Both the position numbers and the translations under genes were made by a program. 58,353 nt of DNA from Methylomonas rivi (GTDB lineage: Bacteria > Pseudomonadota > Gammaproteobacteria > Methylococcales > Methylomonadaceae). The notes below the pieces were generated by a model. That model had not been told where the DNA came from, did no database searches, and saw only the letters and a list, made by a program, of their open reading frames with translations. Location of the stretch: NCBI RefSeq assembly GCF_024505165.1, contig NZ_JANIBK010000009.1, positions 1 to 58,353 of the forward strand, given 5' to 3'. Below, piece after piece: positions 7,320 to 24,107 of this stretch; position 1 is the first letter of the stretch, and the number at the start of each line of letters is the position of its first letter.

Positions 7320-8117
7320 TTAATTCAACAATTGCATGATGAGCCGTTTGATGGACTGAGGCTCGAACGGTTTGTCTAAAACGGCCGAAACCCCCGCGTT
7401 CTCGATCGCGGCCAGACGATTTTGATTTTGTTCGCTGGTGACCATTAAAATCGGCACGGTCGAAATCTGCTCGGCATCGCCGCGTATCGCATTGACCAAC
7501 TGCAGGCCATCCATCTCCGGCATATTAAAATCCGTGACTATCAGGTCGAAGAAATGCTCCTGAAACAACGCCAGGGCCTGTTTGCCGTCGTTGGCGCAGG
7601 TGATGCGCTCGATCCCGATATTATTCAATACCCGTTGAATGTATTTACGGGAAAACTCGCTATCGTCGACCAATAGGACGTGCAGTTCCTCCACATCGAG
7701 ATGTTCGAGAGCGGCCTTTTCCGGATGCAAGTAATCCAGCGATGCGCACAGCGCCGTATCGAGAGCCTGCTGCGTAAACGGTTTGGGCAAAATCGCTATC
7801 GCCCCCGCTTGACGAATGGGCTCCAGGTATTGAATGTTGGTTTCGCTGGAAATCAATAAAAAAGCCATGTCATAGGATTCGCCGTCCTTACGGATGCTAT
7901 GAATCAAGTCGACGCCCGTCATGTCGGGCAAATACATGCTGCTGATAATCAGATCCGGCTTGGCTTTTTTAAGCCGCGCCAGCATTTCGCCGCCGCTGGA
8001 CACAAACGTCACCGCATGAATACCGCTGGCTTGCAAGTGCTGGTTAATGATGATCTGCTGAGTATGGGAGGGTTCTACTAGAAACACCTCCAGGGCGGCA
8101 ATTCCGTTCTCATTCAT
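7320..8117 (-). CDS. Tandem receiver-domain response regulator with a degenerate first domain
   Basis: A 265-residue protein made of two CheY-like receiver domains and no output domain. The second (about 145-265) looks functional: acidic pair D151/D152, phospho-acceptor D196 in VTDFNMPEMDG, and a conserved Lys in the DKPFEP segment. The first (about 8-130) lacks the phospho-acceptor: the position after LIIS is Ser (S60), and the acidic pair is replaced by E-P; its Lys (LPKPF) remains. So the first domain is probably a pseudo-receiver used for binding or regulation. It lies 3 bp downstream of the HDOD-GAF gene and upstream of pilB, suggesting a joint signalling role, perhaps in surface motility. 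Partner kinase unknown. Confidence 0.85.
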   Translation of the reverse strand: MNENGIAALEVFLVEPSHTQQIIINQHLQASGIHAVTFVSSGGEMLARLKKAKPDLIISSMYLPDMTGVDLIHSIRKDGESYDMAFLLISSETNIQYLEPIRQAGAIAILPKPFTQQALDTALCASLDYLHPEKAALEHLDVEELHVLLVDDSEFSRKYIQRVLNNIGIERITCANDGKQALALFQEHFFDLIVTDFNMPEMDGLQLVNAIRGDAEQISTVPILMVTSEQNQNRLAAIENAGVSAVLDKPFEPQSIKRLIMQLLN

Positions 8118-8120
8118 ACG

Positions 8121-9563
8121 TTAATGATGTTTCATCCGGTATAAGGTTAGTCCGATCTGTGCTTGTTTCGCAAAATGCTTGACCGCTGAAAAATCTTCGG
8201 CGGTCAACGCCTGATGTTCAAGCCCCCGGTCGCAATAAATCAAACCGATCGGCTTATTCTCCACCTGGATCGGAAACACAAAACATTCGTGCCGGCCAAA
8301 CTGCGCTTCGATTTGACCGGTATAAAGCGCGCCGTGCTGGCCGGGCTTGAGCCAAAGCCCTTCATGATCGTACAAGGCATGAAATAGCAGATTACCCCCG
8401 GCATCCGTATTGTAGACGCGAATTTTTTCATTGGCATCGGACTTTTTCCAACCCAGGGAAATTTTTTCGTTTAGGGACTTTTTATCCGGCCCCAGCAACA
8501 GGAATACGGTTCTATCCATTTCCACTCCACGATACACCCCTTCCAACACCATCTCAAACAACACATTCAAATCGATGCTACCGCTGATATGCGCGGTAAT
8601 ATCCTGTAAAACCTGAAACTGAATTTGTTTTTTATCCGGTTGCGCCTCTTCCGGCATGGCAACAAACGGTTGGAGCCGCTCCGAACTGATATATTGCGAC
8701 GCATCGTGGGCGCCGAATTGTTGGGCAATATCGACCGCCATCAAGGTATTGGCCCTGATTTTAGCCTTGATGCCGTCAAGGCTGCCGCCGCCGAGATGCT
8801 GCAATTTCCGCAAGCATCCCTCCATCTCTTCCGAGTCGATCCCGTGCCTGAGGGCCAGACAAATCCGGCTGCCCATGCACACGGTCTGGACCCGCTCATC
8901 CTGCGACTGCGGATGGCTGATGGCCTCATGAATCAGCCCGCCCAAATGCCAGGACTTACTGAGTTTCTTGCCCAAATCATTCAGGCAAAAACCCAGCACT
9001 TGCTTTTCGGCCTCCTCGCCTTCCAGACCGCTCGACGCCAATTTCTCATGCATGCCGGCGGTTTTCCGATTGCTGGAACACCAAAAAGCCACATGGCCGA
9101 TATTATGCAGCAAGGCCGCCACGAACACCTCTTCGGGCGACTGGTCCCGTAAGGTAATGGCCAATTCGCGCGCTTGCACCGCCGCGTGAATAGCCTGGGC
9201 AATTTCCTTATTTGCCCGTTCCTTGTTGGCCGGCGACAAAATCGATTCGAAAAAAGAACAGGCCAGCGTCAGCTCGCGGATCATCTGCATCCCCAAAATC
9301 ACAATGGCGCGCGACACGGTGCTGATCTTTTGCCGGGAGGGATTGTAGTACGGGCAATTGCCGACTTTCAGCAATTTGGCGGTAAGGCTGGGATCCTGCA
9401 AAATAATGGAAGCCAGTTCCATGGCCCCCTTCTTTCTATCGTCCATGGCGGAATAAATCTTTTGCGCGGTATTGGAAAAAATCGGCATTTCCTCTTCGCG
9501 CAACAGCTCGGCCCACGCCTCCAAACCCTGGGGTTGCATCTCGTTTAAAGCGCCCGCGTTCAT
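8121..9563 (-). CDS. HDOD domain protein with C-terminal GAF domain
   Basis: A 480-residue soluble signalling protein. Residues about 15-220 form an HDOD domain, a catalytically degenerate HD-type helical domain; LLHNIGHVAFW replaces the HD metal-binding motif. Residues about 310-475 look like a GAF domain, which usually binds a small ligand and often serves in regulation. HDOD proteins in proteobacteria are implicated in pilus- and c-di-GMP-linked signalling, but no specific role can be read here. Its ATG touches the valS stop and its stop is followed 3 bp later by the double-receiver gene, so valS, this gene and the regulator probably share a transcript. Confidence 0.83.
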   Translation of the reverse strand: MNAGALNEMQPQGLEAWAELLREEEMPIFSNTAQKIYSAMDDRKKGAMELASIILQDPSLTAKLLKVGNCPYYNPSRQKISTVSRAIVILGMQMIRELTLACSFFESILSPANKERANKEIAQAIHAAVQARELAITLRDQSPEEVFVAALLHNIGHVAFWCSSNRKTAGMHEKLASSGLEGEEAEKQVLGFCLNDLGKKLSKSWHLGGLIHEAISHPQSQDERVQTVCMGSRICLALRHGIDSEEMEGCLRKLQHLGGGSLDGIKAKIRANTLMAVDIAQQFGAHDASQYISSERLQPFVAMPEEAQPDKKQIQFQVLQDITAHISGSIDLNVLFEMVLEGVYRGVEMDRTVFLLLGPDKKSLNEKISLGWKKSDANEKIRVYNTDAGGNLLFHALYDHEGLWLKPGQHGALYTGQIEAQFGRHECFVFPIQVENKPIGLIYCDRGLEHQALTAEDFSAVKHFAKQAQIGLTLYRMKHH

Positions 9564-12374
9564 TTACAGCGCTTTAATTTTGCCGTACTGCTCGTTGAGA
9601 TTTTTCAACGACGACTGCAAGCTCGCCAGTTTCTCGCGCTCCTTGGCGATAACTTCCGGCGGTGCTTTATCGACGAATGCGGCGTTGTTCAGTTTGCCTT
9701 CGATGCGCGGTACTTCTTTCTCGATGCGCTGGATTTCTTTTTCCAGCCGCGCCAGTTCGGCATCTTTATCGATCAGACCGGCCATCGGGATCAGGATTTT
9801 CATGTCGCCGACCAGCGCAATCGCAGATTCCGGCGTATTGTCCGTTAGTCTCAACCAGGTAATGCTTTCCAATCGGCCCAGTTTCAGTAAGTAGCTTTCG
9901 GTGGCTTGCAGAGCTTCTTGGTCAGCCATGGAACCGTTTTGCAGCAACACATTTAAGGGCTTACCGGGCGCGATATTCATCTCGCCGCGAATCCGCCGAA
10001 TACCAAGAATGAACTCCTTTACCCATTGGATTTGCTGTTCAGCGAAGAGGTCGATGGTTTTATCTGTCTCCATTTCCGGATAGGGTTGTAGCATGATGGT
10101 GGCGGCGGTGACGCCCGCCAGCGGTGCGACCCGTTGCCAGATTTCCTCGGTGATGAACGGCATAATCGGGTGCGCCAAACGCAGTACCGTTTCCAATACG
10201 CGTAACAGAGTTTGACGGGTGCCGCGTTGCAATAGCAAGTCATCGCTTTGCAAAGAGATTTTCGCCAATTCCAAATACCAGTCGCAGTATTCGTTCCAGG
10301 TGAATTCGTAGATGGCTTGCGCTGCCAAGTCGAAGCGGTAGGTTTTAATCGCGTCGTTGGTGGCGGCGATAGTGTGATTCAACTGCGCCAAAATCCATAA
10401 ATCAGCTTTGCTGTATGTGCATTCCGCGCAATCGATACCGTTATCCTGCTCTTCGGTATTCATCAACACGTAGCGCGCCGCGTTCCACAATTTGTTGCAG
10501 AAGTTGCGGTAGCCTTCTGTACGTTGCAAGTCAAAGCGAATGTCGCGGCCGGTCGAGGCCAGCGAAGCGAAGGTAAAACGCAGCGCGTCGGTACCGTAGG
10601 ACGAAATGCCGTCAGGGAATTGCTTGCGGGTGGCTTGCTCGATTTTTTTGGCCAGATGCGGCTGCATCATGCCGGAAATGCGTTTTTCCACCAAGGCTTC
10701 CAGATCGATACCGTCGATAATGTCGATAGGGTCCAGCACATTGCCCTTGGATTTGGACATTTTCTGGCCTTCGGCGTCGCGTACCAGGCCGTGGATATAG
10801 ACTTCCTTGAACGGCACCTCGCCTTGAAACTTCAAGCCCATCATGATCATTCTGGCCACCCAGAAGAAAATGATGTCGAAGCCGGTCACCAGCACGCTGG
10901 TCGGGTAATGCGCGGCCAATTCCGGGGTTTTATCCGGCCAACCCAGCGTCGAAAACGGCCACAGCGCCGACGAGAACCAGGTGTCCAGCACGTCCTCGTC
11001 CTGGAATAGCGGGTAATCCGCCGCCAAACCGTGTTTTTCGCGGATTTCCGCTTCCGAGTGGCCAACATAAGTATTACCCAGATCGTCGTACCAAGCCGGA
11101 ATCCGGTGACCCCACCAGATTTGCCGGGAGATGCACCAATCCTGAATGTTGCGCATCCATTCGAAATAGGTGTTTTTCCAGTTGTCCGGCACGAACTTGA
11201 TGGCCCCGGTTTCCACGGCTTCAATGGCCGGCTTGGCCAGCGGGGCAATTTTGACATACCACTGGTTGGTCAAAAACGGCTCGATCACCGCGCCGGTACG
11301 GTCGCCGCGCGGCACCATCAATTTGTGGTCGGCGATTTTTTCCAGCAAGCCTTGCGCTTCCAGATCGGCAACGATTTTTTTACGGGCCTCGAAGCGGTCC
11401 AGACCGATATAGGCTTCCGGAACCAAACTAAAGCCGTCGTCGTTACCGCGCACGGCAGCGTCGACGGTAAAGATATTGATCAAGCCGCCGTGCGGCAAGT
11501 CGGCGATGGCCGAGATTTGTTTGTGCCGCGTCCAGACTTCGTAGTCGTTGAAGTCGTGGGCCGGGGTGATTTTTACAACACCGGTACCGAATTCCGGATC
11601 GACATACTCGTCGGCAATAATGGGAATCCGGCGGCCGGTCAGCGGCAGTTCGACGAATTCGCCCAGCAAATGCTTGTAGCGTTCGTCTTCCGGGTGAATC
11701 GCCACCGCCGCATCGCCCAGCATGGTTTCCGGCCGGGTGGTCGCCACCAAGATATGCCCGGAGCCGTTGGTCAGCGGATAACGCATATACCACATGGAGC
11801 CGTTTTCTTCTTCGGACAGCACTTCCAGGTCGGAGACGGCGGTGTGCAGCACCGGGTCCCAATTCACCAAACGTTTGCCGCGGTAAATCAGACCTTCTTC
11901 GTACAACTTGATGAACACTTCCTGCACCGCGGCCGACATGCCGTCGTCCATCGTGAAGCGTTCCTTTTCCCAATCCAGCGACGAACCCATGCGCCGCAAC
12001 TGGCGGGTAATCGTACCGCCGGACTCTTCCTTCCATTCCCAGATTCTGTCGATAAACGCCTCGCGGCCGTAATCGTGGCGGGTTTTGCCGTCGGCGTTAA
12101 TGATGCGTTCCACCACCATTTGGGTGGCGATACCGGCATGGTCGGTACCGGGTTGCCATAAGGCGTTATAGCCCTTCATCCGATGATAGCGGGTCAGCGC
12201 ATCCATGATGGTGTCCTGAAACGCATGCCCCATGTGCAAACTGCCGGTGACGTTGGGCGGCGGAATCATGATGCAATAAGACGGCCCCCCGCGATTGGCC
12301 GCGAAATAGCCGCTGTCTTCCCAAAGTTGATACCAGCGTTGTTCGATTGCGTGCGGGGAATAGGTTTTGTCCAT
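9564..12374 (-). CDS. valS: Valine--tRNA ligase
   Basis: ValRS charges tRNA-Val in the cytoplasm. The 936-residue protein is full length. It has the class I signature SLHMGH (HMGH at 47-50), the CP1 editing domain with [10 protein letters not shown], the KMSKS loop in the form KMSKSKGN, an anticodon-binding domain, and the C-terminal coiled coil typical of ValRS from about residue 875 ([13 protein letters not shown] and on). Start ATG at 12374. The opposite strand carries long shadow reading frames because of codon bias, and they are not genes. Confidence 0.98.
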
Positions 12375-12484
12375 GTTCTATGTTTAATGCGCTTGGGTTT
12401 AAATTGAGGTTATTTTAACCGTAAAATGTCAGTAGAGAAGGATTATGGCCGGTTAGTCGCGAAGTCGATGAAGTTTTGCAAAAC

Positions 12485-12505
12485 GTATATACTAGCCGAA
12501 TATAC
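12485..12505. promoter_or_regulatory. Inverted repeat upstream of vapBC, likely autoregulatory operator
   Basis: The arms GTATAT (12485-12490) and ATATAC (12500-12505) are perfect reverse complements with a 9-bp spacer, about 20 bp before the antitoxin start and its AGGAGA ribosome site (12515-12520). AbrB-type VapB antitoxins bind such palindromes in their own promoter, so an operator is the simplest reading. Binding is inferred. Confidence 0.55.
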
Positions 12506-12526
12506 ACCGTTTTCAGGAGAGCAACC

Positions 12527-12757
12527 ATGGCCACCGCCCGTATTTTTCAATCCGGTAACAGTCAAGCCCTACGTTTACCCAAGGAATTTCGTTTTAACAG
12601 CGACCGTGTGGAAATTTTCCGCCGCGGCGACGAAATCGTATTACGGGAAACGCCGGTTAGCGCGATCGCAATTTTCGATGCGCTGGCAGCGTTACCGGAG
12701 GACTTTATGCCAGATGGTCGAGAGGACCTGCCGCCGCAAGAACGCGAGTCGTTCTGA
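12527..12757 (+). CDS. vapB: AbrB/VapB-type antitoxin
   Basis: A 76-residue antitoxin. Residues 1-45 fit the SpoVT/AbrB DNA-binding fold: ARIFQSGNSQALRLPKEFR, then a strand with EIFRRGDEIVL. The acidic, Pro-rich tail (about 55-76) would bind and block the toxin. The ATG at 12527 has AGGAGA 6 bp upstream; the longer in-frame start has no ribosome site and lies over the operator. Its TGA overlaps the ATG of the toxin gene (TGATG), typical of coupled antitoxin-toxin pairs. The module sits alone between valS and a MOSC gene, consistent with acquisition. Confidence 0.88.
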   Translation: MATARIFQSGNSQALRLPKEFRFNSDRVEIFRRGDEIVLRETPVSAIAIFDALAALPEDFMPDGREDLPPQERESF

Positions 12758-13170
12758 TGCGCACACGTTATTTGCTCGATACCAATATCTGCATCTATAT
12801 CGCCAAGCACAACCCTCCGGAAGTGCGGGAGCGGTTTGCTCGCCACTCCGCCAATGAGCTGGCGATGTCGGTCGTAACGCTGGGTGAGTTGATTTACGGT
12901 GCGGAGAAAAGCCAATCGAGGGAACGTGCTCTGGCAGTGATCCAAAATCTGACCAACCTAATCCCAATCCACAGCGTGCCGGAAGCCGCCGGTGAACACT
13001 ACGGACAAATCCGCGCCGAGTTACAACGCCAAGGACAAATCATAGGCAACAACGACTTATGGCTGGCAGCTCATGCCCGGTCAGCGAATTGGATTCTGGT
13101 GACCAATAACGAACGAGAGTTTTTGAGAGTAGCTGGATTACAAGTGGAGAATTGGGTGGATGGTATTTGA
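12757..13170 (+). CDS. vapC: VapC-type PIN-domain ribonuclease toxin
   Basis: A 137-residue PIN-domain toxin. Acidic metal-binding residues are visible: D8 in LLDTNICIY, E44 in LGELIYGAEKS and D100 in GNNDLWLAAHA, with the later VTNNEREF polar motif. VapC enzymes cut specific RNAs, commonly initiator tRNA or rRNA, when freed from the antitoxin; the target here is unknown. Full length and an intact catalytic set suggest an active toxin. Translation is coupled to vapB by a one-base overlap. Confidence 0.92.
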   Translation: MRTRYLLDTNICIYIAKHNPPEVRERFARHSANELAMSVVTLGELIYGAEKSQSRERALAVIQNLTNLIPIHSVPEAAGEHYGQIRAELQRQGQIIGNNDLWLAAHARSANWILVTNNEREFLRVAGLQVENWVDGI

Positions 13171-13324
13171 CTGATTTTTGCTTTTAAAATTGAGTCGCTA
13201 TCGCGACCGGTTTGTTAGAAACATTTAGCCTGGATGGCGCATTTCTCCTGAACGCTGAAGTTAAAAACTGAAAATTGTTAGGCTTTCGCATAAAAGGCGG
13301 CACATGAAAAAAGTTCATTAGAAA

Positions 13325-13351
13325 CTCTGATTAGCGATAGCGTAATCGGAG
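13325..13351. repeat. Palindromic REP-like element
   Basis: CTCTGATTA (13325-13333) and TAATCGGAG (13343-13351) pair across a 9-base loop GCGATAGCG, with one G-T position. The core GATTAGCGATAGCGTAATC resembles intergenic palindromes I recall as scattered in proteobacterial genomes. It lies in the 255-bp gap between vapC and the MOSC gene, where no gene is seen. Copy number in this genome is unknown. Confidence 0.45.
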
Positions 13352-13425
13352 GAATGAAAGACTCCAAATTCGTGTGCATTTATGCTTTTTAGGGTAAATC
13401 GCAACTACCATATCGCCACCCAATC

Positions 13426-13974
13426 ATGACTCTTCGCGAACTCACCCAACAATTCGCCTCGGAAGGCCGAATCGAAACCATCGTTTTACGTCCGGCGCGT
13501 GGCGAGCCAGCCGTTTTTGTCGATGAAGCGCGCGCGGAGCCGGGGCGAGGATTGCTTGGCGATAGACGGGCAAATACTGCGCGCTCCGGCAGGCAATCGA
13601 CCAAGCGAGAACTGACTTTATTTCAGGCCGAGCATTTACCCGTTGCCGCCAACTGGTGTGGGCTTACGAAACTGGAGCCGACTCGTTTGCGACGTAATTT
13701 GGTAGTTTCGGGGCTTAATCTTATCGGTATGCGTTCACCGTTCCCGGATATGATGTTGGAATGGGCGGTGGGTGATGAAGTGATTATCGAAATCACCGGG
13801 CCTTGCGATCCGTGTTCGAAAATGGCTGCCGAATTGGGCTTGGGAAGTTACAACGCGTTGCGCGGCCACGGCGGCATGACGGCGCGAATCGTCTCCGGCG
13901 GCTTGATTCGTGTCGGTGACAGTGTGCGTTTAAATGCCATTCGGCAACTGGAACCCAAAATCGAATCACCCTGA
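13426..13974 (+). CDS. MOSC domain protein
   Basis: A 182-residue protein of the MOSC (molybdenum cofactor sulfurase C-terminal) superfamily. The conserved segment RRNLVVSGLNL (about 89-99) is followed by the Cys motif CDPC at 127-130, the position of the cysteine thought to act in sulfur carriage or in N-hydroxylated substrate reduction in relatives such as YiiM and mARC. It is a stand-alone domain, so it resembles the small YiiM/YuaD-like group. It is transcribed away from vapC and converges on the next leftward gene with only 17 bp between. Substrate unknown. Confidence 0.88.
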   Translation: MTLRELTQQFASEGRIETIVLRPARGEPAVFVDEARAEPGRGLLGDRRANTARSGRQSTKRELTLFQAEHLPVAANWCGLTKLEPTRLRRNLVVSGLNLIGMRSPFPDMMLEWAVGDEVIIEITGPCDPCSKMAAELGLGSYNALRGHGGMTARIVSGGLIRVGDSVRLNAIRQLEPKIESP

Positions 13975-13991
13975 ACACAACGGAAAAACAA

Positions 13992-14756
13992 TCAAGCCCG
14001 TTGCCGCTGCAATATCAAAGCGGTTTTGGTAAAGGCTTGCAATACCGGACCGGCGCCGGCAATCGCCACCGCATCCACCAGGCAATACCAAGCCGCCACG
14101 CCGCTGGGCGGGTTACCTTGCGGTAATTTCGAAGCGGGATCAATCGCGGCCCAGGCCCAAGTACCGGCACCGGTACCGACAATTTCCAGCCAGGATGTGA
14201 TGAAAAATGCCCCCAAATACACCATGGGCGAGCGGCCTTTGAATAAGTAAATCAGAAACACGCCAAACAACACGGCGCCGATAATATCCTGCCGTTGCGA
14301 CCAAGCGCTAATACCCCAGAACGCCCAGAAGCCGCAGACACTCACCACAAACACGGCAATACGCCGGGCATGGCGCATAAAAAAACCCGAACGCCCCAGT
14401 GCCACCGCCGTCAGGTAGACCAGACCGTGTCCGGCAGGCACGTATGCCGGCACATTCTCGAACCGGTAGATATAGCCTTTCATATAAATGGAGGCAAAAT
14501 ACTCGCCCACCACCGCAAATGCGACGGCAACCGCCACTTGGGTACGCACGTATTTGCATTCGCCGCGCAAAAAGGCGATCAAAAAAATCCAGCCGAAAAA
14601 CGCCAATACGTATTGCATGAACCGCGGCGCAAAACCGTCGGTGGTCAAGCAAATCGTGGTGGTCACAAAAGTAAAGCCGGCGATAAAATAATCCCGCCGG
14701 TTATGCTCGGCGGCAACATTCGCAGGCGGAAAATGAGGCAGGGTAAAAAACGTCAT
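13992..14756 (-). CDS. Unrecognised multi-spanning membrane protein
   Basis: I do not recognise this 254-residue protein with confidence. It has about seven to eight hydrophobic segments between residues 25 and 240 and two distinctive conserved-looking loops: VPAGHGLVYL (about 107-116) and the segment near 210-225 with NPPSGVAAWYC followed by an Asp. The His, Cys and Asp in these loops could form a site at the membrane. Its start is 17 bp after the stop of the YqaA-like gene, so the two are probably one transcript. It lacks the Cys-Arg-His pattern of exosortases. Codon usage is like the neighbours, so it is a resident gene. No function is proposed. Confidence 0.72.
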   Translation of the reverse strand: MTFFTLPHFPPANVAAEHNRRDYFIAGFTFVTTTICLTTDGFAPRFMQYVLAFFGWIFLIAFLRGECKYVRTQVAVAVAFAVVGEYFASIYMKGYIYRFENVPAYVPAGHGLVYLTAVALGRSGFFMRHARRIAVFVVSVCGFWAFWGISAWSQRQDIIGAVLFGVFLIYLFKGRSPMVYLGAFFITSWLEIVGTGAGTWAWAAIDPASKLPQGNPPSGVAAWYCLVDAVAIAGAGPVLQAFTKTALILQRQRA

Positions 14757-14773
14757 CTGTGGTTTAGGTACAA

Positions 14774-15199
14774 TTAAATAAATGCGTAAGCAACCGCAAT
14801 ATAACGCAGTGCCTTACCAAAAAAAATAGCGAGTATTGAAGAAAATAGCGACAGCCTCAGCCAGCCGGCGGCAAAACATAAACCGTCGCCCACGACGGGC
14901 AACCAGGAAAACAGTAGCGCCCAACTGCCCCACTGTCTGACTGTCCGCAAGGATTTACGCTGCTTGCCCGTCAACAAGGTTTCCGCGGGATATTTTTTTG
15001 CCGCCCACATCCCCAGCCACCAAGTGGTCAACGCCCCCAATGTGTTGCCGACCGTGGCGACCATCACCAGTTGCTCGACTGCATGCTGCCGGCTATTCAC
15101 CAAATACGCCAATACCGCTTCCGAACCGCCGGGGGCTATGGTCGAGGATATGAATGCGCTGATGAACAACCCCGCCATGCCGAACGTCTCCAATTGCAA
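14774..15199 (-). CDS. YqaA-family (DedA/SNARE-associated-like) membrane protein
   Basis: A 141-residue membrane protein that aligns along its length with E. coli YqaA, a short DedA relative: STIAPGGSEAVLAYLV, the GNTLGALTTWWLG motif, LLFSWLPVVGDGLC and the closing FFGKALRYIAVA. DedA proteins act in membrane lipid or proton homeostasis, and some are undecaprenyl-phosphate flippases; YqaA itself is uncharacterised. The start is TTG at 15197-15199 with GGGAG seven bases upstream, and it gives exactly the family N-terminus; there is no suitable ATG. The strong terminator of the copper gene lies just upstream, so it probably has its own promoter or relies on read-through. Confidence 0.85.
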   Translation of the reverse strand: MQLETFGMAGLFISAFISSTIAPGGSEAVLAYLVNSRQHAVEQLVMVATVGNTLGALTTWWLGMWAAKKYPAETLLTGKQRKSLRTVRQWGSWALLFSWLPVVGDGLCFAAGWLRLSLFSSILAIFFGKALRYIAVAYAFI

Positions 15200-15261: not shown

Positions 15262-16185
15262 TTATTTATCGGGCAGCGGAATGGCTTTTTTGCTTGAAAG
15301 TTTTTTCAGCAATTTGCTTATGATATTTACCGCAAAACCGATGGCTTGGGAAATCCATTCGAATACCGTGGCGATAACTTCTCCCACGCTCATGCCTTTA
15401 AAGCGTTTTGCCAACAAAGGGGCAACCAAAACGCCGATGGCCAAACCCACCACGCTGACGCCCGACAGAAAAGAGTCGTCGGCCGCCGCGACGGTATCAC
15501 CGCTCTGCGCTTTGGGCTGGGATGCCGAGGCCTCCAACGCCGCGGCCGCAACTCTGGCCGCCGCTTCTTGGGCCTCGAACGCTTCGGCCGAGAACGGTTT
15601 GCCGCTGTAATCGTCGGGAAAAACGCTGGCCGTCAGCCCTGGAATGCTGGGCAAATCTTCGGAGCCTTTACCCACTTTCAACTGAGCCTTCATACCCTTT
15701 TCCATATGCTGGGCAATATCGCAATGCACCAGATAGGTTTTATCGCCGGGCGGCAAAATCAGCGTACCGGACACACTGCCCGGGCCGCTGACTTCCAGGT
15801 GAAACATGCCTTTCGGATACAGATACTTGGGCAAACCATGCATCATCCATTGATGGCGGATTTCGTCATCGTTGATAAAATGCACGGTCAATTTCGTGCA
15901 CGGTTCGAATTGATATTCCTGCTGATCGAAGGCCCACATGGTGCCGGGAAATTTTTCGGAATATTTATGCCCTGCATGCACCGTAAGTTCCTTGGTGCCC
16001 GCAATTTTGTCGCAGCCGCCGGGTAAAGTATCCGTGTTTTGCCCCATCACCATGCCGCCATCCATGTCCATCAAGTGGCCGTCGCCATGGTTCATCATGT
16101 TTTTGTGCTCCTGAAACTCTTTCGCGGAAACACCTGAAACAGAAAGCGCACAAACCAGGGCGGCAATCGATACTGTTTTGACCAT
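15262..16185 (-). CDS. Membrane-anchored single-domain cupredoxin (type 1 copper protein)
   Basis: A 307-residue exported copper protein. A signal peptide (1-21) is followed by a Met/His-rich segment (about 27-48), then a cupredoxin domain (about 65-172). Likely type 1 copper ligands are H111, C155, H160 and M165, in EIRHQWMMHG and VHCDIAQHMEKGM. The second motif looks like the last domain of multicopper oxidases (HCHxxxHxxxGM), but the second His of HCH is Asp here, so the trinuclear-site ligand is gone. An Ala-rich linker (about 205-235) leads to a membrane helix (about 243-263) and an amphipathic, Lys-rich tail. It should be a periplasmic, membrane-tethered electron carrier or copper chaperone. 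It follows the next gene upstream on the same strand. Exact role unknown. Confidence 0.82.
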   Translation of the reverse strand: MVKTVSIAALVCALSVSGVSAKEFQEHKNMMNHGDGHLMDMDGGMVMGQNTDTLPGGCDKIAGTKELTVHAGHKYSEKFPGTMWAFDQQEYQFEPCTKLTVHFINDDEIRHQWMMHGLPKYLYPKGMFHLEVSGPGSVSGTLILPPGDKTYLVHCDIAQHMEKGMKAQLKVGKGSEDLPSIPGLTASVFPDDYSGKPFSAEAFEAQEAAARVAAAALEASASQPKAQSGDTVAAADDSFLSGVSVVGLAIGVLVAPLLAKRFKGMSVGEVIATVFEWISQAIGFAVNIISKLLKKLSSKKAIPLPDK

Positions 16186-16273
16186 TAGAGCAATTCCTCT
16201 ATAACAAAGTCGAAATTTAAAAAATCATGAACAACATGCCGACAGACGGGCGCGGGATGCGGAAAAGGCAAAT

Positions 16274-16309
16274 CGTTCATCCTGTCCGCATGTAATGACA
16301 GGATGAACG
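16274..16309. terminator. Perfect 13-bp hairpin between the two copper-locus genes
   Basis: CGTTCATCCTGTC (16274-16286) and GACAGGATGAACG (16297-16309) pair perfectly across a 10-base loop, 10 bp downstream of the stop of the 16319-16912 gene. No clean T run follows on the minus strand, so it may stabilise the 3' end or attenuate rather than fully stop transcription into the cupredoxin gene. Confidence 0.6.
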
Positions 16310-16318
16310 CCGATAAGT

Positions 16319-16912
16319 TTAAAGCTCTTTCGCTTTACCCATCAATTCATCCACTTTTCGTTTGAAGCCGGCATGAGACAAATAGGTGATGTAAAGACCC
16401 GCGAACAACACCAATGCGTATAAGCCATAGCTACCTTTACTGGTAGGTTGACCGCCGCCGGCCTTAAAGCTCATATGGGCATCCAGACGCTCGCCGCTGT
16501 CTTGGAGCAAAGTAATATGGATCAGATATTTACCGGCTTCCGGCACGCCGTTATCCAAATTCAAAATCACGGTGCCCGATTTGTGTTTTTTGGGCTCTTG
16601 ATAGAAAACCCGAGTGCCTTCCGGCTCTTTGGTGACTTCAAACTCAATGGCTCTATCGCGGTAGCGCTGATCCTGATAATCGAATACCAGCTGGATCAAT
16701 GAATCGGTGTCGGGAATATTGCCGCAGAATTCTTCCGCCGGATAGGCTTTGGGTTGGTAGGCGGTGTAATGAATCCAATGATCTTTTTCCAGTTCGAACT
16801 TACACTGGTCGGTATCCGTACCGGCCGCACCGCCATGCGCCCAGGCCGACGCGGAAAAAATCAGCCCGACGAGAGCAAAAAGACTATTTCTGAAAATACG
16901 CGTTGTTTTCAT
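16319..16912 (-). CDS. Exported, membrane-anchored protein with predicted mature N-terminal histidine
   Basis: A 197-residue protein I cannot place in a named family. A signal peptide ends in ASAWA, so cleavage would leave H26 as the first mature residue (HGGAAG). The periplasmic part (26-155) looks like one beta-sandwich: C37 and C63 could form a disulfide, H45 and H48 lie in DHWIHY, and H110, H132 and H146 are further on. One membrane helix (about 162-180) and a basic tail follow, placing the domain in the periplasm. N-terminal His is used to bind copper in CopC, lytic polysaccharide monooxygenases and PmoB, and the neighbour is a cupredoxin, so copper binding is a fair inference but unproven. 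Start ATG at 16912. Confidence 0.78.
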   Translation of the reverse strand: MKTTRIFRNSLFALVGLIFSASAWAHGGAAGTDTDQCKFELEKDHWIHYTAYQPKAYPAEEFCGNIPDTDSLIQLVFDYQDQRYRDRAIEFEVTKEPEGTRVFYQEPKKHKSGTVILNLDNGVPEAGKYLIHITLLQDSGERLDAHMSFKAGGGQPTSKGSYGLYALVLFAGLYITYLSHAGFKRKVDELMGKAKEL

Positions 16913-18935: not shown

Positions 18936-19529
18936 TTAAGCCTTTTTACGGCGGGTCATCGGACCCAGCACACCCGCCAAACCGGCGCCGAACATCCATA
19001 CCGCGGCAGGCAAAGGCACCACATGCACTTGGCTGTTGACATAATTCACATCAACCAAGGCACCACCCGGTAAAGTAAAGCCAGTATCATCAAAAGCGGG
19101 ATTCCCGATGCTAATCGTTGTTTCCGAGCCCACGGCACCCAAAATGCCGAAGGTGAACGAGGCGATGGCAAAAGAATTTCCGGCATCGCCCGCCGTTAAT
19201 TTACTTAGAAAAACGTAATCAATACTGCCTGAATTTTCATCGCTGACAAAAGCGCTATCCCATGGCGGATTGGCAACCGTACTACCGACATAACTCAAGA
19301 CCAATGGATTCCAATTTAGCGAAAAGGCGGCCCCGTCAGGTCCTTGGGTAAAATTATATCCCCTTAGATCCAATGTCAACGTGTCGCCCTCGCTCGCGTT
19401 GATAACATTGCCTTGGCTGAACATCACGGTATTCGGCGCTAAAACGGTAGCCGAAACAGGGCCTGCAAACATCACAAGGATGACCAAGCCACTCACAATC
19501 GAAACAGGCTTCTTAAAAATTTCGTTCAT
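18936..19529 (-). CDS. Cohesin-like domain protein with PEP-CTERM anchor
   Basis: A 197-residue exported protein. After a signal peptide (1-27) comes one beta-sandwich domain (28-168) with the cohesin pattern: a first-strand region ending SEGDTLTLDL, then AFSLNWNPLVLSYVG (68-82), then a SGSIDYVFLS strand and a Phe-rich AIASFTFGI strand. Residues 170-197 are a PEP-CTERM tail (VPLPAAVWMF, a hydrophobic segment, then TRRKKA), which an exosortase would process for surface anchoring. I chose the ATG at 19529 because GGAGA precedes it and the signal peptide starts there. The upstream gene encodes a cytochrome with a dockerin, the usual binding partner of cohesins. Cohesin assignment is by pattern, not by search. 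Confidence 0.78.
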   Translation of the reverse strand: MNEIFKKPVSIVSGLVILVMFAGPVSATVLAPNTVMFSQGNVINASEGDTLTLDLRGYNFTQGPDGAAFSLNWNPLVLSYVGSTVANPPWDSAFVSDENSGSIDYVFLSKLTAGDAGNSFAIASFTFGILGAVGSETTISIGNPAFDDTGFTLPGGALVDVNYVNSQVHVVPLPAAVWMFGAGLAGVLGPMTRRKKA

Positions 19530-19628
19530 ATATTCTCCGAATTTATTTGATGTTGATGTATTCATTACAAATTTCTCTATTTGTGCAGGAATCGGCCCCG
19601 TGTCGCGGGCCGATCCCCTCGACAAAAA

Positions 19629-22094
19629 TTAGGGTGCAACGCCCGACGGCCCCGGCATTTTCCCCAAATATCCCTTGGCGATACTCAAGTCGGTTGGGTC
19701 GACGATCCCATTTCCATTCAAATCTTCATGCCCATTTGGAGATACTTTTCCCAGCAAAGCCTTTTGTTTTGACAGATCGGTAGGATCAACCACCTTGTTC
19801 TGATTGAAATCCGCATCGCAAATATTGCCGTAGCCGTCCCCGTCGGTATCGCGCTGATTGGCGTTGGCCACCCGTTTGCAGTTATCCAGATTATCCGCCA
19901 CGCCGTCGCCGTCGGTATCCGGCGCCGGCGGAGCGACAACCGAGCCGGCGAATTCGGCACTAGCGATTACCGTGGATTTTTGCGTGGACGCATCGAACAT
20001 GGTTTTGAAATCCACCACTTCCGGCGTTGCAGTATCCGCAAACAAGTCCTCGGCATACGCATGCGACAGGGTTTGGTAAACCAATTCGGCCTTGACCGTG
20101 TAATCACCCGCCGGCAAACCGCCGATCCGATAGCCGATCTGGTCGCCGCCGCCGATGAAGTTGCTGTCGGACAAAGCGGCACCGACAACCCGCACGTCGG
20201 CAGGCGCAGCGGCTTTATCGAAGCCGGGCGGCAGAATGCGGTTGTCTTTCAGGTATTCCTTGCCGCGCAGCAGGGTGTAGGTCACTTCGCCTTCATTGTT
20301 GCCCATGATGGCTTCATAGACCTGTACTTGATCTTCCGCCGTGATTTGGTCGTAATGCGGCTCGAAGGTATTGCCGTTGTCGTCGGCATCGACGCCTTCG
20401 ACGCTACCGTCGGCATTGACCTTGCCCGATTCCCAAACGATCCGGTTTTGCGGGTCGGTCACCGTGACGTGCAGAATGGCCCGCCTTGACGGATAGCTGG
20501 TCGGCAATTTGTGACCGGTGGTGCTGTTGATTTGCAAAGTAAAATCCAGCGCATTCGGCGTTGAACGTTGTTCGACCACACTGACTGTCGCCGCGCTTTT
20601 CAGCATCGCGTCGGTTTTGGCCAGGGTTTCGGCAAAATTGTTCGACAACACGCCGAGCTGGTTTTTGTTGTTATTCAAAATATCCAGCATCAACTTGTTG
20701 GCGCCGACCAAGTCGTGAATCGCGAAGTTGTTACGCAACCCGGACATGCCCATGGTGGAGATTTTCACCCCATCGGAACGGCTCATGTGGCAACCCTGGC
20801 AGCTTTTTTGGCCGACATAGCTGCTTTGTTCCCACTCCATATACGGGGTTTGTTCGGGAAACTCGCTTTCCGGCGTGGTGCTCAGCACGTTGCCGGCCGC
20901 ATCGACATACGGCGTTTTCAAGTTATGGCAGGACGCGCACAGTTTGGAGTCCTTGGTATGCGCGCCATAGGTCGGCGTATAACCGGTATGCATCACCATC
21001 GGCATCGTGAACAGCGCGGTATCGCCCGGTCCGCCGTAAGGGCCGTAGATGGTTTTTGTATCGTTGATTGCATAGTTGCCGGACATGGTCGCCAGCGTGC
21101 CCAAAGCCGGCGTGGCCGGAATCTGGTGGCACAAGGTACAACTGACGCCGTCCATTGCCGCATTGTGTTTGGCGTGGCCGACATCCAGAATACCGCCGTC
21201 GAAAATGGTTTGGCTGGCGATGGTGTTGTCTTTTTTGGCTTGAGCATTAGCCATGGGCGCATGGCACTTGCTGCATTTGTCGTTAATGACGCCTTGCAAC
21301 TCGGGATGACGCGCCATTTCGCTACGTACTTTGGCCCGCCAAAATGGATCTCGGCTGGAGTTCGCCATCATGGTCGACGACCAGTCGGTGACGATGGACA
21401 CATCCTTGCTTTGATTGTCGACGATGCCGTTGTGGCACATCGCGCAATTTTGCGAACCCGAGAAATGGCTGCTACTGAAGGCCGGATCGCCCGCATCGGC
21501 CGGGTCGCCGGCAAAAGGATTAACCGGAACGCTCGGACCGGTGCCTTCTTCGACCACCACCGCATCAATGTCATAGGTCTTGTAATCGGGCGTCGGCGCA
21601 CTGTTGAAAAACCTGAGTTCCGCCGCCGGATTGGTGGCACTGGCGGTAAAGGTATAGGCCAGCAATTGAAAGCTGCCGCTGACGTTGGAAAAAGCGGTAT
21701 TGAAGCCGGCCACCGAGATTTCCAGCGGCGTATAGCCGGCGGTCGTGCCCTTGCGGGCCTGGAACGACAGCGTGTAAGTCACGCCGGCGGTGACCGGGAA
21801 GGTGGTTTTGATGCCGGAACCCTGATTGATCGCCATGGCATAAATGCCTTCGACGACTCGGCTGGTGTAATTGCCGCCGGGACGATTTTTGTTCATCAAA
21901 TAGGGTCTTTCGCCGACCCCATCATCTATCGCGGTCCAGCCGGTAACGCTGGTGGCGTTATTGGATAGAAACAGATAGGTGGTGACGGTACCCGGACTTT
22001 CGAAGCCGCCGTTGTTTAATAGATTGGCGGCTGTTGCCGGCGATAACGGCAGTGCCGCCGCCAGCATCAGCAGGATGGTTTTTATAATTTTCAT
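19629..22094 (-). CDS. Five-haem cytochrome c with C-terminal thrombospondin-3 and dockerin repeats
   Basis: An 821-residue exported protein. Order: signal peptide (1-23); a jelly-roll carbohydrate-binding-like domain (24-185, with NNGGFESPG); a multihaem region with five CxxCH sites at 217, 274, 319, 386 and 432; a beta-rich domain (500-720) with GHKLPTSYPSRRA, seen in other multihaem cytochromes; calcium-binding thrombospondin type 3 repeats (726-760); and two dockerin repeats, 760-783 and 791-812, each with D-x-N-x-N and VDPTDLS followed by LGK. It should act outside the cell in electron transfer. I chose the ATG at 22094 as it opens the signal peptide. There is no PEP-CTERM tail of its own; the next gene encodes a cohesin-like anchor. 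Substrate or redox partner is unknown. Confidence 0.88.
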   Translation of the reverse strand: MKIIKTILLMLAAALPLSPATAANLLNNGGFESPGTVTTYLFLSNNATSVTGWTAIDDGVGERPYLMNKNRPGGNYTSRVVEGIYAMAINQGSGIKTTFPVTAGVTYTLSFQARKGTTAGYTPLEISVAGFNTAFSNVSGSFQLLAYTFTASATNPAAELRFFNSAPTPDYKTYDIDAVVVEEGTGPSVPVNPFAGDPADAGDPAFSSSHFSGSQNCAMCHNGIVDNQSKDVSIVTDWSSTMMANSSRDPFWRAKVRSEMARHPELQGVINDKCSKCHAPMANAQAKKDNTIASQTIFDGGILDVGHAKHNAAMDGVSCTLCHQIPATPALGTLATMSGNYAINDTKTIYGPYGGPGDTALFTMPMVMHTGYTPTYGAHTKDSKLCASCHNLKTPYVDAAGNVLSTTPESEFPEQTPYMEWEQSSYVGQKSCQGCHMSRSDGVKISTMGMSGLRNNFAIHDLVGANKLMLDILNNNKNQLGVLSNNFAETLAKTDAMLKSAATVSVVEQRSTPNALDFTLQINSTTGHKLPTSYPSRRAILHVTVTDPQNRIVWESGKVNADGSVEGVDADDNGNTFEPHYDQITAEDQVQVYEAIMGNNEGEVTYTLLRGKEYLKDNRILPPGFDKAAAPADVRVVGAALSDSNFIGGGDQIGYRIGGLPAGDYTVKAELVYQTLSHAYAEDLFADTATPEVVDFKTMFDASTQKSTVIASAEFAGSVVAPPAPDTDGDGVADNLDNCKRVANANQRDTDGDGYGNICDADFNQNKVVDPTDLSKQKALLGKVSPNGHEDLNGNGIVDPTDLSIAKGYLGKMPGPSGVAP

Positions 22095-22186: not shown

Positions 22187-22972
22187 TCAAACGGCCGGAC
22201 GATTACGTTTGCCCAGTGCCAGCAAACCCATGAAGCCGGACAAGAAAGTCCAGACGGCCGCGGGCACGGGAACCGGCGCCACATTGGCGGTGATTGTGAG
22301 GTTGTCGATGCCGACCGCGCTGTTGGTGGTTGGATTGGTACCGGTATTTTCGAACAAGCCGAAACTCAACCAATACTGGCCATTGGCGTCAGCCGCACCC
22401 AGACTGGCAACGGCCAAGGTGACGCTGTCGGGACCGTACACTTTGCCGACGCTAGCGATTGATTGGTCTAAAACCGTAACCGATGTGGTTAGCGGTGAAT
22501 TGATATCGAAACCGGCACCGCCGATGCCGACCTTGAACCGGTCGGTGCTGCCGCCGGTTCCGCCCAGCACGAAGGCGCTGAAAACCCAATCGAAACCGAC
22601 GGTAATATCGGTTGTGCCGCTCGCCAAGCTAAACGGCGTGGCAAAGCCGAAAGTTCCATCACTCGGCGAGCCGGCCAATTGCCCGCTATCGTCCCCCATA
22701 ACCAGGAATTTATTCGTCGCGCTGTTATTAAAGAAAGTGGTTCCTGCGGCCAAGCTGAAACGTTGATTCGGATTGCCGGCGTTGTAGGTGTTTATCGTGT
22801 CCGTGCCTGATCTCAGGTTGACCGAAGTTCCAAGCGTCTGAGCCGAACTAGGCATGCCGGCATCGAAATTTTCATCCAGTAATGTCACCGTTTCGGCTTG
22901 CGCGGATGACCAGGAAAAAGCGCCCAGCATCAAGCCGGCAAGCAGTGTTTTTTTGATTAGCAATTGTTTCAT
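22187..22972 (-). CDS. PEP-CTERM surface protein, unrecognised ectodomain
   Basis: A 261-residue exported protein. Signal peptide 1-26 ends in SSAQA. The ectodomain (about 27-230) is a Gly/Ser/Thr-rich beta-structure starting LLDENFDAG, similar to lectin-like or choice-of-anchor PEP-CTERM proteins, and I cannot name the ligand. The tail VPVPAAVWTF, a hydrophobic segment and GKRNR form a PEP-CTERM signal. AGGAAA lies just upstream of the ATG at 22972, and this fixes the start. It lies between the 24107 PEP-CTERM gene and the cytochrome gene on the same strand, with 19- and 92-bp gaps, consistent with one transcript. Confidence 0.85.
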   Translation of the reverse strand: MKQLLIKKTLLAGLMLGAFSWSSAQAETVTLLDENFDAGMPSSAQTLGTSVNLRSGTDTINTYNAGNPNQRFSLAAGTTFFNNSATNKFLVMGDDSGQLAGSPSDGTFGFATPFSLASGTTDITVGFDWVFSAFVLGGTGGSTDRFKVGIGGAGFDINSPLTTSVTVLDQSIASVGKVYGPDSVTLAVASLGAADANGQYWLSFGLFENTGTNPTTNSAVGIDNLTITANVAPVPVPAAVWTFLSGFMGLLALGKRNRPAV

Positions 22973-22991
22973 TATTTTCCTCAATTAACTG

Positions 22992-24107
22992 TTAATAGGT
23001 TTGTTTACGTCTGCCGACGCCCACCAAACCGGCTAAAGCGCTGCCGAACAGCCAAACCGCGCCGGGCACCGGAACAGCGGACACGTTGCCGACCAGATTC
23101 AGTGTCAATTGATAAGTTTGCCGCGTGCTGCCGGCGCCCAAATCAGCATCGGACAGATTCAGCAGGTATTGCGCGCTGAAGGCGCCGGTATTGGCGGTCA
23201 GTAAATTGGCAACGAAGGCTTGGCTGCCGCCTTGCGCCAAGTCGGCGAAAGCGGACAAACCGGTTTCGAACGCAGCCGTGTCGCCGCTGCCGACAACGCC
23301 ATCCAGATCCAGACCGATACGGTCGGCGTCGGCCATATTGAACAAAGCGAAATTCAGTGATGCCGCGCTATTTTGAGCAACGTTGCCGAAATCCAGCGTC
23401 AACACATTGGAAACCGAACTGCCGTCGAATGAAGCCGCTGCATGCAGCAAATAACTGTAATTGGCTTGCAAGTCGCCCGCCCACTCAACCGAATAATGGG
23501 TGGTGGAGCCGCTGGTTTGGCCTTGGGTTCTACTGAGAGTGGTTGTGGCTTGCAACGTAGGCAGAGATAAAGCCGCATTGACAGAGCCGTTACCAACATA
23601 ATCATCCAGATTGGAATTTGCCACGCTTGCAGTCGCATTGGTAGCCGTTGCCGCGGATGAGTTTGGCCCCCAACTGCATTCGGTAAAGCCTGTCGGTCCC
23701 ATGGCCAACGAACAGGCTCCGCCGGTTTGGGAAATGGCGGTAGAAAAATTGGCGGCCGCGCCAATCGCGGCCAAAGCAGCGGTACTGCTACCGCTTCCGC
23801 TTGCGTCTCTGCCGGGCCCATTATTTTTATAGCCGTACCCGTCGATGACTTGCAGGCGGTTTGAGGTCAATTGCAGATCAACCCCCGTCAATACACCGTT
23901 AGCCGCATTAAATTGTCCCAATGAAACATTGGCGATGGATGCATTATTGTTGCTATTGCTTGCCGATGCGACCGAAGTGCCGCTGGCGGACACCGAGGCC
24001 GATCCGCTAAAGCCGACCGCTCCGCTGGACGTGGTCAATGCCGCTTGCGAGATACCGCTTACCGCCAGCAAGCCGGCTACCGCCGTTAATTGAAAGTTTG
24101 TACTCAT
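22992..24107 (-). CDS. PEP-CTERM surface protein, choice-of-anchor E type
   Basis: A 371-residue exported protein. Signal peptide 1-22 (GLLAVSGISQA). A Ser/Ala/Asn-rich ectodomain includes SLGQFNAANGVLTGVDLQL (about 62-80), the opening pattern of choice-of-anchor E proteins. The tail VPVPGAVWLF, hydrophobic segment and GRRKQTY are a PEP-CTERM signal. It is probably a structural or adhesive component of the surface or of exopolysaccharide. As the first gene of the leftward cluster (this gene, 22972, cytochrome, cohesin-like), its upstream region should hold the promoter. Confidence 0.85.
   Translation of the reverse strand: MSTNFQLTAVAGLLAVSGISQAALTTSSGAVGFSGSASVSASGTSVASASNSNNNASIANVSLGQFNAANGVLTGVDLQLTSNRLQVIDGYGYKNNGPGRDASGSGSSTAALAAIGAAANFSTAISQTGGACSLAMGPTGFTECSWGPNSSAATATNATASVANSNLDDYVGNGSVNAALSLPTLQATTTLSRTQGQTSGSTTHYSVEWAGDLQANYSYLLHAAASFDGSSVSNVLTLDFGNVAQNSAASLNFALFNMADADRIGLDLDGVVGSGDTAAFETGLSAFADLAQGGSQAFVANLLTANTGAFSAQYLLNLSDADLGAGSTRQTYQLTLNLVGNVSAVPVPGAVWLFGSALAGLVGVGRRKQTY

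Follow-up and report, generated by a model that had tools for sequence, protein, structure and literature searches.

We analysed a 58,353-nucleotide stretch of the Methylomonas rivi genome (contig NZ_JANIBK010000009.1, positions 1 to 58,353; hereafter the window), in which a gene for a pentahaem cytochrome ending in a type I dockerin is followed, on the same strand, by a gene for a single cohesin domain with a VPLPA-CTERM-like sorting tail (Table 1). We consider it probable that the two form a clip-on anchor for a redox protein, in which the cohesin would bind the dockerin and, sorted by the exosortase XrtD, hold the cytochrome outside the cell for a redox role. The locus suggests a way of attaching such haem proteins to the cell surface that has so far gone undescribed. 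A preliminary description of the window had noted a cytochrome with two C-terminal dockerin repeats and a cohesin-like next gene with a PEP-CTERM tail, and had proposed a surface electron-transfer scaffold. This observation is confirmed, and on stronger grounds than that description could have known. Its interpretation is borne out in part, by the dockerin, the predicted cohesin fold, the gene pairing, the tail with its exosortase and a cytochrome core whose relatives have been considered for extracellular electron transfer. The term 'scaffold' does not stand, since the anchor protein has one cohesin and is thus an anchor, not a multi-cohesin scaffoldin.

The cytochrome comprises 821 residues and contains exactly five CxxCH motifs, as first described. 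An N-terminal signal peptide (judged by eye) is followed by a DUF642 domain, the five-haem core, a thrombospondin type 3 (TSP3) repeat and the dockerin. The DUF642 domain and the TSP3 repeat had escaped the preliminary description, as had two upstream genes (22187-24107) whose products have PEP-CTERM-like ends. The DUF642 region also gave a weak match to choice-of-anchor C (TIGR04362, 30.4 bits, below the cut-off of 120). The dockerin profile PF00404 barely exceeded its cut-off (23.2 versus 22.9 bits; 24.8 bits in the genome scan), and acidic or amide ligands occupy positions 1, 3, 5, 9 and 12 of both calcium loops in all 11 dockerin-type orthologues, counting that of the window. In cellulosomes, loop positions 10 and 11 help decide partner choice. 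Here, these residues are identical between both repeats in 8/11 orthologues, the pattern expected of a dockerin able to bind in two orientations, and vary across species (PT, PA, PV, PL).

The downstream protein (197 residues) also starts with a signal peptide, by eye. Pfam and NCBIfam see only its sorting tail, with both PEP-CTERM (15.6 of 20.7 bits) and VPLPA-CTERM (Table 1) below their cut-offs, the latter just under; the tail is best described as VPLPA-CTERM-like, and the predicted model has a C-terminal helix. Its assignment as a cohesin rests on a 13-member family profile searched against the PDB and on the predicted fold. The profile gave a best E value of 1.7e-7, and its top 10 matches were all cellulosomal cohesin or scaffoldin chains; the PDB search with the single sequence gave seven antibody chains (E 0.14 or worse). 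PF00963, the Pfam cohesin profile, matched 4/13 of the aligned relatives at E <= 1 (best 4.8e-5). The predicted structure has the cohesin jelly-roll fold, with top matches that are by title nearest to type I cohesins; the Foldseek and VIA match lists span mainly model residues 129-273, and the lack of other folds in those lists is uninformative. The protein holds one cohesin, and the cohesin profile marked three separate places on three contigs of the genome.

The pairing of dockerin and cohesin genes was strong and specific across the genus. We surveyed 37 genomes, with dockerins defined by PF00404 and cohesins by the 13-row profile without its tail. PF00404 at E 0.001 marked 53 places (51 above cut-off) and the cohesin profile marked 50. 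A cohesin lay within 3 kb of 34/53 dockerins, on the same strand in 34/34 cases and downstream in 31/34, against 0.15 pairs expected by chance. Chance, or a clustering of secretome genes, was rejected as the main explanation, since it hardly accounts for these counts. The profile rows had mostly been picked because they adjoin dockerin genes, and 6/13 came from the scanned genomes; dropping the six pairs that supplied rows left 28/47 dockerins still paired. Poisson and Fisher figures for the pairing treat relatives as independent and are not taken as proof. Of 16 unpaired cohesins, one is a broken half in genome G038, and 10 of the other 15 have a dockerin-like frame in the stretch fetched, as seen by a local dockerin profile that is more sensitive (E 0.01 in a small database; weakest of the 10 matches 0.003) and, being built from the dockerins of such loci, leans toward finding them. 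The 35 non-redundant pairs in which the cohesin gene immediately follows the cargo gene fell into 12 cargo groups sharing no BLAST match at E 1e-8 beyond the dockerin end, several cargo frames being cut by the edge of the stretch fetched. Dockerin and cohesin divergence were correlated across these pairs (Mantel, 0.87), mostly through shared descent within families. Across 274 genomes sampled from the class, 16 carried the cohesin profile; of the 15 other than M. rivi, 6 had a dockerin-like frame within the flanking 1.5 kb or, for one of them, within the cohesin frame itself. In G326 (L223, 28-3387), a cohesin-like and a dockerin-like domain stand together in a single long frame, the layout expected of a protein that forms chains, and G286 (L213, 919-1977) has two tandem cohesin genes beside one dockerin gene.

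The five-haem core is widespread, and its orthologues provided a natural comparison (best 80 of 155 named loci). A TSP3-dockerin tail occurred in 10/80 loci, from Methylomonas and from metagenome-assembled genomes (MAGs) of Methylobacter, Methylococcaceae and an unclassified proteobacterium. A cohesin frame came next in all ten, its mechanical start 7 to 95 bases past the cytochrome stop codon; in Methylomonas sp. WSC-7 only the first half of this frame is present. Among the other 70 loci, 63 had at least 700 bases downstream and a cohesin was found there in none; the sole weak profile match nearby (E 0.0092) was a 3-kb frame on the opposite strand, more than 4 kb off. Orthologues from Methylobacter and Methylotuvimicrobium end where the TSP3-dockerin would start, and two of the 70 (L168, a gammaproteobacterium whose contig ends after 240 bases, and L197, a planctomycete) have other dockerin-like tails with no cohesin visible. 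An IQ-TREE phylogeny of 80 rows (79 loci and the window) placed the 11 dockerin-type rows in one exclusive group (support 100/100). Independent replication is thus provided by the recurrence of the pairing in unrelated cargos, not by this single-clade comparison. A prophage of ~38 kb splits the cohesin gene of WSC-7 (G038 contig C3, ~39107-77283; L253, L254), leaving the cytochrome-dockerin gene intact; it looks Mu-like, with transposase, portal, terminase and tape-measure families among the 7 proteins searched.

Cargos in the genus included a nuclease-like family of 18 members, which we take to resemble ExeM; the one member scanned matched Exo_endo_phos above the cut-off, and lamin-tail and dockerin below theirs. 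Of the cytochrome cargos, the pentahaem one occurred in 10 genomes and a nonahaem one in 2. In G107 (L066), the nonahaem dockerin cytochrome (7549-10206), which carries an MtrC/MtrF domain (PF22113, 41 bits, cut-off 30), is followed by its own cohesin gene (10234-10824). A PhoX-like dockerin protein encoded near a cohesin gene scored 42.6 bits (cut-off 24), its dockerin being recognised by the local profile and not by Pfam. The M. rivi genome has a second locus (G000 contig C6, 56369-64313, L061) with one cohesin gene between two dockerin genes, which encode a PhoX-like protein (577 residues) and a two-CxxCH protein (767 residues). Approximately 3 kb from this locus lies a gene with nine CxxCH motifs and an MtrC-like domain (PF22113, 34.9 bits). 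In G094 (L074), one cohesin gene precedes a run of four dockerin genes, the last of which encodes a MauG/MbnH-like dihaem protein (12424-14805). Dockerin proteins with haem motifs formed four separate sequence clusters: the pentahaem, the MtrC-like nonahaem, the MauG/MbnH-like dihaem and the 767-residue two-CxxCH protein. Judged from gene order, the anchor would be mostly private, with one cohesin gene per dockerin gene, the exceptions being a single cohesin beside two or four dockerin genes.

We further compared the cytochrome core with known redox proteins. A profile of 29 cores matched the Thermochromatium tepidum pentahaem cytochrome c552 (5ze8, E 1.6e-7), with a further, marginal match to a multihaem selenoprotein (E 0.02); a narrower 19-row profile (A3) matched no PDB chain at E 0.1. 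The predicted structure of the cytochrome was poor (mean pLDDT 47.4), and Foldseek on this low-confidence model gave 5ze8 (E 8.9e-8) as the sole match below E 0.001, which the 29-core sequence profile independently backs. The ExtKL model NF040886 was matched by 19/19 cores below the cut-off of 250 bits, the window cytochrome scoring 36.1, which makes it a relative of ExtKL and not a member; it likewise fell short of the MtrC/OmcA family (PF22113, 28.6 bits, cut-off 30). A cable-bacteria paper groups ExtKL with its own pentahaem proteins (PHC) and notes a likeness to c552 and, via c552, to an archaeal cytochrome nanowire (PMC11976967). These relationships to c552, ExtKL and PHC support a redox role outside the cell or at the envelope; the likely job would be extracellular, either an exchange of electrons or a redox reaction. 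An electron-transfer role is plausible, with electron transfer proper given less weight than anchoring.

The same anchoring is compatible with a cytochrome that is a terminal oxidoreductase (e.g. for a metal or chalcogen oxyanion) and not a conduit, an alternative we regard as a substantial possibility of well under even chance. In its favour, ExtKL is part of a cluster that has been investigated in connection with selenite and tellurite reduction (PMC5877670), and no neighbouring gene was common to more than two of the 8 core loci compared, so there are no consistent adjoining conduit genes. The haem ligands are unreadable in the poor cytochrome model, and direct evidence favours neither side.

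The M. rivi genome encodes the VPLPA-specific exosortase XrtD (TIGR04152, 602 bits, cut-off 400), exosortase A and the type II secretion protein GspD. We propose that the cytochrome would be exported by Sec and its five haems c attached in the periplasm. Its dockerin, folded with calcium, would be bound by the single cohesin of the neighbour, the pairing being observed at the gene level and the folds predicted. XrtD, whose gene is present, would process the VPLPA-type tail, and the cohesin would reach the cell surface or the extracellular matrix, where it would hold the cytochrome non-covalently. The last step, and the weakest, would be extracellular electron exchange or redox chemistry. The scheme may equally serve other cargos of the genus, namely the nuclease-like proteins, the PhoX-like protein and the MtrC-like nonahaem cytochrome. 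The proposed anchoring is well supported by comparison and by the predicted fold.

A periplasmic or inner-membrane site of cohesin-dockerin binding, with the cytochrome as a redox enzyme of the periplasm kept close to its partners, appears unlikely to us. Such a site would agree with the outcome of the search for an MtrB/PioB porin (PF11854, E 0.01), which was not found in the 99.97% complete genome, a search of uncertain sensitivity as the cut-off was reached in 0/14 control genomes; the same result speaks against a simple electron conduit. The passage of PEP-CTERM proteins across the outer membrane is, moreover, not settled, and the T. tepidum c552 is reportedly a low-potential cytochrome for which we know of no surface role. 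Against a periplasmic location, other core orthologues carry lipoboxes (14/80, by a simple pattern, some doubtful) or, by eye, GlyGly-CTERM-like (L177, L186) and MYXO-CTERM-like (L188) tails, which suggest surface sorting; others have long extensions of other kinds. The nuclease-like and PhoX-like cargos of the same scheme belong to types usually secreted, and GspD is present. PepA, a PEP-CTERM protein, has a role in flocs and is perhaps part of the extracellular polymer (PMC9850573), from which the location of the cohesin can be guessed only as 'surface or matrix'.

Several results besides the porin search count against a clip-on anchor. Of the two Pfam profiles named in the preliminary description, PF00404 matched the cytochrome, but PF00963 matched neither the 197-residue protein nor anything else in the genome at E 1. 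The sole complex model (AlphaFold, dockerin and cohesin as a single chain) reached a pTM of 0.57 with confident domains, a value that does not decide for or against binding. No cohesin-profile match lay within 3 kb of 19/53 dockerins, and 5/15 of the fetched unpaired cohesins had no dockerin in view. Between cargo groups, the correlation of dockerin and cohesin divergence was weak: one set of representatives gave r 0.16 (p 0.13), and 50 such sets gave a mean r of 0.24 with a median p of 0.04. Residue-level matching of partners is therefore not claimed. Because the 11 dockerin-type cytochromes form one clade, the co-occurrence of tail and cohesin counts as one gain, and L179, a MAG carrying the label Methylomonas, has the form without a dockerin. 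That the TSP3-dockerin is a calcium-stiffened structural tail, and its neighbour an unrelated Ig-like PEP-CTERM protein placed there by secretome clustering, is very improbable: the 0.3-bit margin of PF00404, the absence of Pfam cohesins from the genome and the weak between-group correlation would fit, but the neighbour's predicted fold is specifically that of a cohesin, the observed pairing far exceeds expectation on a constant strand and in several unrelated cargo groups, and orthologues without the tail also lack the cohesin neighbour.

The anchor proposed here resembles the cellulosomal type I cohesin-dockerin pair (Clostridium, Acetivibrio) in its two folds and in having the dockerin on the cargo and the cohesin on the anchor. 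Unlike in cellulosomes, there is one cohesin per anchor and no scaffoldin, a cytochrome serves as cargo, most pairs stay within a single locus, and anchoring relies on a VPLPA-type exosortase tail instead of an S-layer or sortase attachment; the cargos inspected were cytochromes, nuclease-like, PhoX-like and other proteins, with no search aimed at cellulases. Non-cellulosomal cohesins and dockerins have long been known. Anaerobic methanotrophic (ANME) archaea are rich in both, and uses outside cellulose breakdown, with surface and adhesion roles, have been proposed (PMC9012536, PMC5244752, PMC10553843); an adhesion role involving multihaem cytochromes was suggested in passing, as a hypothesis only (PMC5244752, PMC9012536). 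In the accessible parts of these papers, however, the dockerins named are on ABC-transporter binding and S-layer proteins, scaffoldin-like proteins have up to five cohesins, and no PEP-CTERM-type anchor on a cohesin is described. The statement in the preliminary description that no methanotroph example was known is qualified by these ANME reports; for aerobic methanotrophs, no example turned up in the titles and passages of the open-access literature searched. Within the same accessible text, Methylomonas and dockerin occurred together only in a metagenome paper, and dockerin and exosortase only in an ANME review. No open-access full text joined a dockerin, with or without a cohesin, to PEP-CTERM, although older subscription papers may.

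The core is related by profile to the pentahaem cytochromes T. tepidum c552 and Geobacter ExtKL, the link to cable-bacteria PHC being drawn through PMC11976967; the window protein differs in its added DUF642, TSP3 and dockerin domains and in not reaching the ExtKL cut-off. PEP-CTERM/exosortase sorting is matched in the presence of XrtD and in a VPLPA-type tail that scores just under its cut-off, but the sorted protein here looks like an adaptor holding another protein, not the functional protein itself. The name of NCBIfam NF041540, 'GC-type dockerin domain-anchored protein', shows that dockerins have already been seen as anchoring tags, although a cohesin partner is no part of that name. Two other M. 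rivi proteins matched NF041540 below the cut-off (21.7 and 21.2 of 29 bits) and the window protein did not match it at E up to 1.

Table 1 Features of the cytochrome-cohesin locus and its upstream genes (window positions).
Feature	Position	Strand	Details
Cohesin-VPLPA-CTERM gene	18936..19529	minus	197 aa; 99 bases after cytochrome stop
VPLPA-CTERM-like sorting tail	18942..19019	minus	residues 171-196; TIGR03370 24.0 bits, just below cut-off 25.35
Cohesin domain (predicted)	19026..19448	minus	~residues 28-168; family profile versus PDB and predicted fold
Pentahaem cytochrome gene	19629..22094	minus	ATG at 22094, stop 19629-19631; 821 aa
Type I dockerin of cytochrome, two calcium-loop repeats	19665..19811	minus	residues 762-810; PF00404
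TSP3 repeat of cytochrome	19809..19919	minus	residues 726-762; PF02412 30.3 bits, cut-off 25
Conserved core, five CxxCH haem sites and C-terminal beta domain	19941..21509	minus	~residues 196-718
DUF642 domain of cytochrome	21585..22025	minus	residues 24-170; PF04862 34.8 bits, cut-off 27
Upstream protein, PEP-CTERM-like end by eye	22187..22972	minus	without any family match
Second upstream protein, PEP-CTERM-like end	22992..24107	minus	TIGR03370 20.6 bits, below cut-off 25.35

Full-length relatives of the first upstream protein were present upstream in 7/10 named dockerin-type loci, and of the second in 9/10 (tblastn; in the remaining locus the contig begins too close by). Upstream of the cytochrome, two loci (L147, 8001-8633; L137, ~8001-8621) encode a free-standing DUF642 protein whose end is PEP-CTERM-like. 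It shares 46-47% identity with the N-terminal domain of the cytochrome, for which it is a likely source. The minus strand at 15262-16912 of the window encodes two more secreted-looking proteins (307 and 197 residues), the first cupredoxin-like by eye. A promoter and terminator scan gave fewer sites than in shuffles, and nothing from it was used.

Finally, in an anode enrichment of the aerobic methanotroph Methylobacter, one study reports methane-dependent current and an MtrB/PioB-type porin complex in a genome without MtrC/OmcA-type outer-surface cytochromes (PMC13322032). More tentatively, with odds that we put a little below even, Methylomonas and its relatives may possess a general clip-on display in which each dockerin-tagged secreted protein meets a single-cohesin, exosortase-sorted socket, mostly encoded beside it, with calcium allowing cargos to be loaded, exchanged or released. 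Used by the four clusters of haem-motif proteins, this display may form an outer layer of electron transfer where aerobic methanotrophs are without MtrC/OmcA. The Methylomonas locus is a concrete candidate, since the presumed surface anchor of its redox protein is encoded separately and could be deleted, and in Methylomonas sp. WSC-7 a strain already exists whose socket gene is naturally broken. If true, Gram-negative bacteria would have a compact, calcium-dependent display pair that is a possible tool, and some exosortase-sorted proteins would gain a molecular job, that of holding other proteins.

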